From the NCBI GenBank assembly GCA_030609055.1, contig JAUWCZ010000018.1, positions 1-32,016 on the forward strand: DNA of 32,016 bases. The letters run 5' to 3'. The DNA is from Chloroflexota bacterium. GTDB lineage: Bacteria > Chloroflexota > Anaerolineae > Anaerolineales > UBA11858. This document shows, piece by piece, positions 1,822 through 5,105 of the stretch. The translations under genes and the position numbers were made by a program. The notes under the pieces are model-generated. The model had not been told where the DNA came from. It did no database searches and saw only the letters and a program-made list of their open reading frames with translations. Position 1 is the first letter of the stretch. Every line of letters starts with the position of its first letter.

Positions 1822-2739
1822 ATGAAAGCACTTCCCTCAGATTTTATTAACCGGATTTCAAAGGTTTACGGTGATGCAGGAGAATCCTGGCTGAACCAGC
1901 TGCCGGAATTGCGGAAATCCGTTCTGGATCGCTGGTCCCTTACAGGTGGCGATCCACTTTACCCTCTAACGTACAATTACCTGGAAAACGCAGAGGATAG
2001 GAATGGAACAGCTGTCATTCTGAAACTTGGCGTTCCCAGCCCGGAACTCACCACTGAGATCCTGGCACTCCAGCAATATAGCGGGAAGGGTGCTGTCCGG
2101 ATTATCCAGGGAGATCCAGAGCAGGGAGCTCTATTGCTGGAAAGGGTTTATCCAGGGACAAACCTGTTAGGGATTGAAAATGATGAGATAGCTACCCGGA
2201 CTGCTTGCCAGGTCATGCAGCGAATCTGGATTGAAGCACCTGATGGCGGGTTTTTCCCCAACATGGCAGATTGGTGCCGAGGATTTAATAGATATGGGAA
2301 ACAATACCCCGGGGACAGCGGTCCCCTACCCAAAAATTTGATTCATCGGGGGGAAGCATTAGCTCAGGAACTGCTCCAAAACCAAAACACATCGCTGTTA
2401 TTGCATGGGGATCTTCACCATATGAATATCCTGCTGGGAGAGGGGGGATCCTGGATCGCGATCGATCCTAAAGGAGTAATTGGAGAGCCCAGTTTTGAAG
2501 TCGGTCCGCTGCTTACTAATCCGACGTCGGATTTGATAACCTACCCCAACCTGGAACAGGTTCTCAGCCGCCGGTTGGATATTCTGACTGAAACCCTGGC
2601 GCTGGACCGGTTCCGCATGGCTGCCTGGAGTTTCACCCGGGCTGTTCTATCGGCTGTGTGGGTGGTTGAGGATCAAGGAGACAACTGGGTATATTGGACT
2701 ACGATAGCGGAGTGTATGCGCGTATTAATTCCGAAATAA
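1822..2739 (+). CDS. Aminoglycoside/hydroxyurea antibiotic resistance kinase-like protein (APH(6)/StrB family)
   Basis: A 305-residue cytoplasmic kinase-fold protein. The Brenner-type motif LLLHGDLHHMNILL (near residue 190) holds the catalytic Asp and the metal-binding Asn, and AIDPKGVIGEPSFEVGPLL supplies the DxxG-like metal-binding Asp. Both are characteristic of the APH_6_hur family, which phosphorylates streptomycin at position 6 or hydroxyurea. The N-terminal lobe (AVILKLGVP, ALLLERVYPG) also fits. Homologues are common on environmental chromosomes, so resistance is not implied and the natural substrate may be a small metabolite. The upstream GrpB-family gene is probably in the same transcript, and a strong hairpin follows the stop. 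Confidence 0.88.
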   Translation: MKALPSDFINRISKVYGDAGESWLNQLPELRKSVLDRWSLTGGDPLYPLTYNYLENAEDRNGTAVILKLGVPSPELTTEILALQQYSGKGAVRIIQGDPEQGALLLERVYPGTNLLGIENDEIATRTACQVMQRIWIEAPDGGFFPNMADWCRGFNRYGKQYPGDSGPLPKNLIHRGEALAQELLQNQNTSLLLHGDLHHMNILLGEGGSWIAIDPKGVIGEPSFEVGPLLTNPTSDLITYPNLEQVLSRRLDILTETLALDRFRMAAWSFTRAVLSAVWVVEDQGDNWVYWTTIAECMRVLIPK

Positions 2740-2782: not shown

Positions 2783-4624
2783 TTATTCTACTGTGACAGA
2801 TTTTGCCAGGTTGCGTGGCTGATCTACATCCAATCCTCGCTGTGCGGCGATGTGGTAAGCCAGTAACTGTAACGGGATCACAGTGGTGACAGGACTTAAC
2901 ATCCAGGGCGTATCAGGCACATTAAGTACATGATCAGCCTGGGATAGGATTTGCTGATCCCCTTCAGTCGCAACCGCGATGACCCGTCCTCCCCGGGTTT
3001 TGGCTTGCTCAATCTGATTAATCATCTTTTCATACCAGGGATCACGGGGAGCAATAACTACAACCGGAAGACCAGAATCAATTAATGCAATTGGTCCATG
3101 TTTCATCTCCCCGGCCGGATATCCTTCGGCGTGGATATAGGAAATCTCTTTCAGTTTCAGGGCACCCTCATAGGCAGTGGGCATATTGATACCTCTGCCC
3201 AGGTAGAGTGCATTTTGGACTTCCAGTAGATTATCTGCGACCAGCTTTACTTCATTCTCTTTATCAAGACACCGGCCTGCTAAATCTGGGACCAGTCTTA
3301 AATCATCAACCAACTGACGGCGTTGATTTTCATCAATTGTCCCTCGTAATTCTCCCAACAGAATCGCCAGCATATACAAATCAACCAAGGGTGCTGTATA
3401 GGCTTTGGTTGAAGCCACTCCGATTTCCGGACCAACCTGCATAGAAATGTAACCATCAGCGATGCGCATCGCTTGTGATCCAATTGCATTCACAATCGAC
3501 CACAGGGTTGCACCTTTCCGCCGTCCTTCTTCCATCGCAGCTAATGTATCAGCTGTTTCCCCGGATTGGCTGATTGCCAGGACAACCATTTTCTCATCCA
3601 CTATAGGATCCTGATAGCGGAATTCAGATCCGATTTCCACCTCTACCGGGATGCGGGCGATACGTTCTATCAACACTTTACCCACCATACCTGCATAGGA
3701 CGCCGTTCCACAGGCAATAATGAAGATTTTGCTGATTTCCTTTACCATAGCCGGGGATACATTTAAACTTGGCAACTGAATTGAACCCAACTCGTAATCT
3801 ACTCTTCCAGCAATGGTTTCAGTGAGTGAGCGGACCTGCTCATGGATTTCTTTGTGCATAAAATGGCGGTATTCACCCTTCTCAGCCGATACCGGATCCC
3901 AGGGGATATTATGCACCTCCGGCTGGATTCCCTTCCCCTCCAGTGTCAACACTTCCACTCCTTCACGGTTGACAACCGCCATCTGTCGGGATTCAAGGAA
4001 TATCATTTCCCGGGTATGTTCCAGTATGGCAGGTAAATCGGATGCAATATACATTTCATCCTTACCCTGCCCGATGACAACTCCCCCGGCATTCCCAATT
4101 CTGGCAGCAATGATTTTATCCGGTTCAATTCTGCTCATCACAACGATGCCGTGGGCACCTTTCAGGTGGAGCAGCGCTTTTTGCACAGCAGTTGTGATAT
4201 TCCCTCCCCCGGAGAGGTATCGCTCGATCAAGTGGACAATCACTTCCGAATCAGTTTCAGATTGGAATACTACCCCTTCGCTTTCCAATTCATCCCGAAG
4301 GATGGAAAAATTCTCCACAATCCCATTGTGAACCACAACAACATCCCCTGTCATTCCCAGATGAGGATGCGCATTTCTAGTATTCGGTTCCCCGTGGGTT
4401 GCCCAGCGGGTGTGTCCAATTCCGATATTCCCCGTTACTGGCGATTCCTGAACCAGTTGGCTCAACCGTTCCAATTTACCGGCATCACGTCTGATTTCAA
4501 TCTTGTCATTCTCAAGAACAGCAATGCCAGCCGAGTCATACCCTCGATACTCAAGCTTTTTCAACCCATTCATGATAATGGGCGTGGCATTTTGGGGTCC
4601 GATATAACCTACAATTCCACACAT
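2783..4624 (-). CDS. glmS: Glutamine-fructose-6-phosphate aminotransferase (isomerizing)
   Basis: Makes glucosamine-6-phosphate from fructose-6-phosphate and glutamine, the first step towards UDP-GlcNAc. The 613-residue protein starts MCGIVGYIG; Cys2 becomes the N-terminal nucleophile of the glutaminase domain after Met removal. The ORF-track start lies 36 codons upstream and is wrong: GGAGGG at 4633-4638 is 8 bases ahead of this ATG. Further motifs are GHTRWATHGEPN and HNGIVENF (glutaminase), two SIS sugar-isomerase domains (IIACGTASYAG, AISQSGETADT, VASTKAYTA; then YLGRGINMPTAYEGALKLKEISYIHAEGYPAGEMKHGPIAL), and the canonical C-terminus RNLAKSVTVE. No key residue is missing. A glmS ribozyme lies in its leader, implying feedback control by the product. 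Confidence 0.98.
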   Translation of the reverse strand: MCGIVGYIGPQNATPIIMNGLKKLEYRGYDSAGIAVLENDKIEIRRDAGKLERLSQLVQESPVTGNIGIGHTRWATHGEPNTRNAHPHLGMTGDVVVVHNGIVENFSILRDELESEGVVFQSETDSEVIVHLIERYLSGGGNITTAVQKALLHLKGAHGIVVMSRIEPDKIIAARIGNAGGVVIGQGKDEMYIASDLPAILEHTREMIFLESRQMAVVNREGVEVLTLEGKGIQPEVHNIPWDPVSAEKGEYRHFMHKEIHEQVRSLTETIAGRVDYELGSIQLPSLNVSPAMVKEISKIFIIACGTASYAGMVGKVLIERIARIPVEVEIGSEFRYQDPIVDEKMVVLAISQSGETADTLAAMEEGRRKGATLWSIVNAIGSQAMRIADGYISMQVGPEIGVASTKAYTAPLVDLYMLAILLGELRGTIDENQRRQLVDDLRLVPDLAGRCLDKENEVKLVADNLLEVQNALYLGRGINMPTAYEGALKLKEISYIHAEGYPAGEMKHGPIALIDSGLPVVVIAPRDPWYEKMINQIEQAKTRGGRVIAVATEGDQQILSQADHVLNVPDTPWMLSPVTTVIPLQLLAYHIAAQRGLDVDQPRNLAKSVTVE

Positions 4625-4735
4625 ATGGTGTACCCTCCCTGAACATTTCAGCCTGGCCTGACATTCTGGACCAGTAAGAAGATTGCCGAGCTCACAGGAC
4701 AAGAGAAGTAAGCTGAATTCTATTAAAGTCACCTA

Positions 4736-4980
4736 GGATGATGTTGTCCCACCGGTCACCCGGGGTTTTATCATCCGTTTAGATTGGAGGGAAAAATCGG
4801 AGTGTGACAATCTCCGGAGGGCTTCCGCTGATGGTTCGATTTTCCTGACTTGTATCTCCCCCAGTCAGTTAGCCTCCACAATTGGAGGAACCCTCATCCT
4901 CGTCAACTCAAGATGCAGTACGATGCAGATTTGGATCACTACCTATCCAGTGTGCTTTCAATCTTGAGCCCTTGCGCTAT
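4736..4980 (-). ncRNA. glmS ribozyme / riboswitch in the glmS leader
   Basis: Read 5'-3' on the minus strand, the leader has the glmS ribozyme landmarks in order: AGCGC with the expected cleavage site between A4978 and G4977; P1 arms CTCAAGAT (4968-4961) and ATCTTGAG (4914-4907); the signature AGTTGACGAGGAT; GAGGGTT; ATCGAACCATCAGCGG followed by AAGCCCTCC; P3 arms CGGAG/CTCCG; and GGATGAT-AAAACC, a GTGA-capped P4.1-like hairpin, then ATCATCC closing P4. Known glmS ribozymes are cofactor-dependent: glucosamine-6-phosphate bound in the active site triggers self-cleavage and loss of the downstream mRNA. The glmS ATG lies 111 bases after the 3' end. P1 is capped by about 45 bases, and about 50 bases with two further hairpins are inserted between GGGTT and ATCGA. 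Assignment rests on remembered consensus, not a covariance search. Confidence 0.92.
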
Positions 4981-5105
4981 TTCCCTAACCCAAAGTATTC
5001 CTTTCACCTCCTTCCTGGTAAAAATCCCCAAAGAAATCGTTAAAAATTCAGATTCCCTAGCGGTTGTTATCTTACTCGAAGAAGCAATTTCCTGCAAGTC
5101 CTGCC

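Follow-up and report, generated by a model that had tools for sequence, protein, structure and literature searches.

According to a 2011 survey, nearly all members of the glmS ribozyme family are reportedly located before the glmS gene. Glucosamine-6-phosphate (GlcN6P) is the catalytic cofactor of this class, cleavage leads to decay of the mRNA by RNase J, and the canonical fold is largely unchanged by the ligand (PMC11476745). The class as reviewed has no expression platform (PMC10907184, PMC13273304), and a 2026 study that sought glmS variants with such a platform detected no overlap supported by covariation (PMC13273304). Control of glutamine synthetase genes by RNA is shared with the glutamine riboswitch (glnA motif, RF01739), the fold of which differs from that of the elements described here. 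Our literature search found no glmS ribozyme before glnA, glutamate synthase or amt genes, nor any for Chloroflexota or Anaerolinea.

Here we describe relatives of the glmS ribozyme that precede ammonia-assimilation genes and appear to carry an added termination switch, a combination that is not described in the literature we found and would be new. They constitute a clade, termed N-type, that was found with a covariance model (R1) built from 14 glnA copies. The elements share with the glmS ribozymes of B. subtilis and T. tengcongensis (RF00234) the cleavage site, the double-pseudoknot core, the catalytic G, the ligand pocket, and the P3/P4 domain. The copy from which the analysis started also resembles them in its position before glmS, whereas the N-type copies stand before glnA, gltB or amt, have the P2.2 bulge at position 4, and carry a pyrimidine tract between P3 and P4.

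The glmS leader and a second copy before glnA

The window analysed here is a 32,016-nt stretch of a Chloroflexota contig (JAUWCZ010000018.1), in which cmscan detected RF00234 as the sole RNA family (45.6 bits, E=1e-7; gathering score 37 bits). The match spans model positions 1-167 and is not truncated; the same element was recovered by a search of the host's own genome (Table 1). A preliminary description made from the sequence alone had placed a glmS ribozyme at 4736-4980, which lies inside this match, and all conserved blocks that it named on the minus strand, from AGCGC to the GNRA-capped P4, were located. It was also right about the complete glmS gene behind the leader, which is separated from the ribozyme by 100 nt. 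The window copy has the A-1/G1 site, the ACGAGG block with the catalytic G, the AUCG pocket, and GCGG; the hairpin loop of P1 is unusually long. The catalytic G corresponds to G42 in B. subtilis and G40 in T. tengcongensis, and the roles of residues in the P2.1/P2 strand follow PMC11602151, while those of the AUCG pocket strand and the GCGG P2.2 strand follow PMC11602151 and PMC7125110. Judged by the covariance model and the conserved core, the element is a genuine glmS ribozyme with predicted self-cleavage. The gene upstream of it encodes a cyclophilin, and the gene at 1822-2739 (+), adjoining glmS, encodes an aminoglycoside/hydroxyurea kinase domain (PF04655, 150 bits).

Table 1. Positions of features in the window glmS leader and, in coordinates of locus L002, in the glnA leader of the same genome
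Feature	Positions	Strand	Basis
glmS ribozyme (RF00234), full length	4725..4989	-	cmscan and own-genome search
Predicted self-cleavage site, A4978 (A-1) / G4977 (G1)	4977..4978	-	AGCGC block, RF00234 alignment
GTTGACGAGGATGAGG / GUUGACGAGGAUGAGG: P2.1 5' strand, catalytic G, P2 5' strand	4892..4907	-	sequence
AAAATCGAACCATCAGCGG / GGAAAAUCGAACCAUCAGCGG: ligand-pocket strand (AUCG) and P2.2 3' strand (GCGG)	4825..4845	-	sequence
P3 hairpin	4798..4816	-	sequence and Rfam alignment
Tract alpha, CCCUCC, between P3 and P4	4786..4791	-	exact complement of glmS Shine-Dalgarno
P4 region, AAAACCCCGGGTGACC..GGACAAC, with GUGA (GNRA) tetraloop and conserved AAAA / GGACAA purines	4743..4769	-	sequence and Rfam alignment
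glmS Shine-Dalgarno GGAGGG, potential partner of alpha	4633..4638	-	sequence
glmS, 613 aa, glutamine--fructose-6-phosphate transaminase	2783..4624	-	TIGR01135 778.9 bits; ATG start at 4624 by MCGIVGYIG
L002: alpha	1385-1391
L002: beta	1490-1503
L002: terminator	1526-1545
L002: glnA start	1624

The same description had proposed that, should the host be a member of Chloroflexota, metabolite-controlled self-cleavage is hereby extended to that phylum. The host does belong to Chloroflexota, within the order Anaerolineales, and relatives that match the sequence pattern are nearly all from Anaerolineales, Anaerolineaceae or Chloroflexi; as news the extension did not hold up, RF00234 matches being present in 152 of 298 sampled genomes of the host's class. 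Given this abundance, the window copy is one unremarkable representative of the many RF00234 elements in the class. That description did not notice the complementarity between alpha and the Shine-Dalgarno sequence, nor did it include the expression platforms or the paralogous copies in front of glnA, glutamate synthase and amt genes.

A second RF00234 match in the host genome (G000:C3:1240-1453, plus strand) scores 31.5 bits, under the 37-bit cut-off, and its core ends 188 nt upstream of glnA (TIGR00653, 518 bits). This glnA copy is preceded by a promoter, TTGACA-17-TAAAAT, at 1182-1210, which is aligned in most glnA leaders of the host's family. RF00234 matches occur in 20 of the 21 genomes of the family, mostly as two copies each, and tblastn sorts them into pre-glmS and pre-glnA sets. 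Some N-type copies of the family exceed the Rfam cut-off (43.3, 40.6, 40.4, and 37.4 bits), and others score as low as 24 bits. The glutamine riboswitch RF01739 gave no match at E<=1 in the host's glnA leader. Just upstream of this leader lies a selenocysteine tRNA (RF01852, 70.8 bits; L002 826-918, minus strand).

The N-type clade in Anaerolineales

Matches to R1, the E-values of which are rough, were found in 216 of 251 Anaerolineales genomes. Among the matches listed, approximately 100 of these genomes reach the threshold of E<=1e-27, and among the matches inspected at this level only N-type copies occur; the matches inspected outside the order precede glmS or amino-sugar genes. An N-type pattern scan of GTDB contigs returned records that are nearly all labelled Anaerolineales, Anaerolineaceae, Anaerolineae or Chloroflexi, including the isolates Longilinea arvoryzae, Bellilinea caldifistulae, and Levilinea saccharolytica. 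R1 confirmed 107 of the 108 Chloroflexota stretches with the pattern and none of the 11 others; the pattern matches in Paucibacter, Dakarella, Rhizobium, Sphingomonas, Clostridia, Planctomycetota, Archangium, Verrucomicrobiales, Deltaproteobacteria, Lysobacterales, and one other bacterium were rejected for lack of covariance support. Contamination of metagenome-assembled genomes cannot account for the N-type pattern, which is shared by isolates and by about a hundred genomes.

The genes behind the N-type leaders belong predominantly to ammonia assimilation, as counted over loci, with some leaders counted twice. GlnA is the first downstream gene in 84 leaders, and an ada-eamA-glnA arrangement follows 28; for instance, in family f2 (L117, L122, L203, and others) one leader is followed by genes for an Ada-like methyltransferase and a DMT-family exporter, with glnA in the third place. 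A split or fused glutamate synthase (PF01645 185.9 bits, NF008730) is encoded behind more than 20 leaders, and in one genus the glutamate synthase gene is preceded by MOSC and DinB genes after the ribozyme leader. In one genome, the N-type copy precedes amt (PF00909, 405 bits), directly followed by a PII gene (amt-glnK). One Longilinea arvoryzae copy has no large gene behind it, only a 46-codon ORF ending in ATGG (L195 1102-1239), which has no Pfam match and a partial relative of which stands behind another N-type copy (L263 5053-5106, minus strand).

In an RNA tree built with the P2.2 trait columns removed, the glmS copies are all separated from the 63 N-type rows, which group together as a single clade (SH-aLRT 100). 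Outside this clade lie three fusions of glutamate synthase from another family, which have the canonical P2.2; therefore, their recruitment was separate. Other gene contexts were also seen: glmS ribozymes above the Rfam cut-off precede a PseC-like DegT aminotransferase gene in two distant Chloroflexota genomes (L304 690-2268; L307 1907-3513, minus strand), and a glmS ribozyme of 62.2 bits precedes a single ORF that fuses YvcK/GlmR-like and GlmM-like domains (L303 1043-3739).

The core of the N-type copies, numbered after the T. tengcongensis core of PMC7125110, is nearly invariant. Among 139 distinct sequences, many of them selected by a pattern in which AGCGRCUG and ACGAGG are fixed, ACGAGG, which includes the catalytic G, is present in all 139, the residues A-1, G1, C2, and G3 are conserved in 136-139, and AUCG and GCGG in 136-137 each. 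The residues that touch GlcN6P in the crystal structures are G1, C2, the AU of AUCG, and the last G of GCGG. Because of the fixed pattern, a fair test of P2.2 is provided by the sequences that the model found outside its training set, 41 of 46 of which have R4-C5-U6, whereas C4 is present in 33 of 33 glmS copies. In the N-type copies, the canonical P2.2 (C4-G54) is replaced by a bulged R4, and the helix with CAGCGG opposite comprises C2-G56, G3-C55, C5-G54, U6-A53, and G7-C52. By sequence, the P2.2 bulge has thereby moved from position 6 to position 4; in a mutant study, such bulge-shifted P2.2 helices were inferred to be better than mismatched ones (PMC7125110). Both sides change in 27 of 40 helix pairs of the N-type (716 compensatory cells versus 184 in shuffles), and three of four pairs between L3 and the GUGG after P4, here named P3.1, covary.

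These data bear on two alternatives. If the N-type copies were decaying duplicates without function, a score under the Rfam cut-off, as for the host's glnA copy, would be expected; the order-wide conservation, the invariant active site, the 716 compensatory cells, and the conserved promoter and terminator make such decay highly improbable. Alternatively, the N-type may be a derived class in which the glmS fold serves as an aptamer, possibly without cleavage, for a different ligand (glutamine or some other nitrogen signal that bears an amine). In its favour are the target set (GS/GOGAT/Amt), the consistent P2.2 change that separates the N-type from the glmS copies, and a nitrogen-sensing niche that seems open, as a PII protein was not found in the host genome and strong PII matches (E<1e-18) occur in only 9 of 251 Anaerolineales genomes. 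Eight of these nine lack a match of N-type strength, an anticorrelation that we give as context and do not use as evidence, the cases being too few and phylogenetically non-independent. We nevertheless judge another ligand unlikely: the GlcN6P-touching residues are unchanged in the N-type, and the glutamate synthase fusions of one family combine the canonical P2.2 with the same expression platform (see below). Because the pocket is unchanged, GlcN6P is most likely still the ligand of the N-type.

Putative expression platforms of the N-type and glmS leaders

Of 135 N-type leaders, 99 have an intrinsic terminator downstream of the ribozyme, versus 3.1 expected from shuffles; among leaders with GlmS as the first gene the count is 2 of 54. 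Nine of the ten pairs of the terminator stem (GGYAYGCC..GGCRURCC) covary. Between P3 and P4, within the N-type ribozyme itself, lies the pyrimidine tract CCCUUCC (alpha), which is complementary to GGAAGGGC; the latter can alternatively pair with the 5' arm of the terminator. The beta element, GGAAGGGCUGCC, is usually found 50-100 nt past the ribozyme, and the terminator arms are named gamma (the 5' arm) and delta. Where a terminator is present, alpha and beta can form six or more Watson-Crick pairs in 97 of 99 leaders, and in 2000 of 2000 permutations the strands of one leader matched each other better than strands exchanged between leaders; shuffled downstream regions give an alpha pairing of at least six in roughly a quarter of cases, pyrimidine and purine tracts pairing easily by chance. 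The compensated alpha:beta variants are CCCCUCCU:AGGAGGGG, CCCCUC:GAGGGG, CCCUCC:GGAGGG, and CCCUUC:GAAGGG. Column covariation of alpha:beta is absent from the alignment, in which the helix hardly varies, and support for this pairing therefore comes from a few variant lineages.

The remaining part of beta is able to pair with gamma, and the minimum-energy fold of the beta-to-gamma region contains this pairing in 67 of 69 leaders (median -13.2 versus -8.9 kcal/mol for shuffled sequences), with marginal column covariation; the energies are -15.4 kcal/mol for the terminators and -12.0 kcal/mol for alpha:beta. By these criteria the N-type leaders have what appears to be a standard attenuator layout, namely mutually exclusive antiterminator and terminator linked to a ribozyme domain. 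The order of exclusive helices (alpha:beta, beta:gamma, and gamma:delta) is that of transcription-attenuating riboswitches in general, from which the N-type differs in that its sensor domain is, by sequence, a self-cleaving ribozyme fold. It also departs from the known glmS class, having predicted terminator/antiterminator or Shine-Dalgarno pairing and nitrogen genes as targets instead of cleavage-only control of glmS. RNAalifold pairs the catalytic strand ACGAGG with alpha, which suggests how alpha could be masked, although purine-pyrimidine pairing is cheap.

Terminator and beta are both missing from a subset of Anaerolineaceae glnA leaders, and in the terminator-less leaders L205 and L219 alpha can pair with a Shine-Dalgarno-like sequence. 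In the glmS leaders, including that of the window, alpha is CCCUCC, complementary to the Shine-Dalgarno sequence of glmS. At least six pairs, and up to 10, are possible in 31 of 44 glmS leaders; changed partners include UUUUCUCCUC:GAGGAGAAAA and UUUCCCCC:GGGGGAAA, and the own fit is 5.9 versus 5.4 for swapped partners. Because any Shine-Dalgarno sequence is purine-rich, the case for this putative pairing is weaker than the terminator case in the N-type.

Alternatively, the N-type and glmS copies may all be ordinary ribozymes that destroy the glnA, gltB, amt, and glmS mRNAs at high GlcN6P, the terminator being controlled otherwise (e.g., by an RNA-binding antiterminator protein) and alpha:beta representing a structural extension. 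This would agree with the retention of all catalytic nucleotides in the N-type, with the RNase J encoded in the host genome (584.5 bits), and with the action of the described glmS ribozymes by cleavage. However, it does not readily explain why a tract inside the ribozyme complements beta, with compensated variants, why beta overlaps a strand able to pair with the 5' arm of the terminator, and why some alpha tracts in leaders lacking a terminator (L205, L219, and the glmS leaders) pair with Shine-Dalgarno-like sequences. We therefore regard control by cleavage only as rather doubtful.

A proposed switch and its significance

The reading that we prefer, and consider probable, is that the ribozyme domain was duplicated in Anaerolineales and that the N-type copy, set before nitrogen genes, works like a conventional riboswitch through its expression platform, whether in addition to cleavage or in its place. 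The closed ribozyme core would be stabilised by GlcN6P or by another amine rich in nitrogen; with the ligand bound, alpha would be free to pair with beta, the terminator would form, and nitrogen assimilation would be reduced. At low ligand levels, alpha would be masked, perhaps through pairing with the purine strand of the core in its unfolded state, the beta:gamma antiterminator would form, and the gene would be read. In the glmS leaders, including that of the window, alpha would pair with the Shine-Dalgarno sequence in place of beta. Self-cleavage followed by RNase J decay probably acts too; which way the switch operates and what cleavage contributes in the N-type are put forward as proposals. 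GlmS makes GlcN6P from glutamine, and GlcN6P could therefore report nitrogen sufficiency. Ligand control of alpha is left unexplained by the known structure, because the canonical fold barely changes with the ligand.

As a more far-reaching possibility, which we hold only tentatively, the N-type may represent a riboswitch class of its own on the glmS fold, which responds to a nitrogen signal other than GlcN6P (or to GlcN6P without needing cleavage), controls GS/GOGAT/Amt by termination, and replaces PII-type control in much of the order.

The Chloroflexota leaders appear to carry an expression platform, the switching strand of which lies within the ribozyme itself. The N-type copies also offer a way to examine, in natural sequences, the bulge-shifted P2.2 that was put forward on the basis of mutant libraries (PMC7125110). 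If the proposed duplication and switch are correct, a catalytic RNA has been turned into a switch of both transcription and translation, and central nitrogen assimilation across the order Anaerolineales would be tied to an amino-sugar phosphate or a new ligand.
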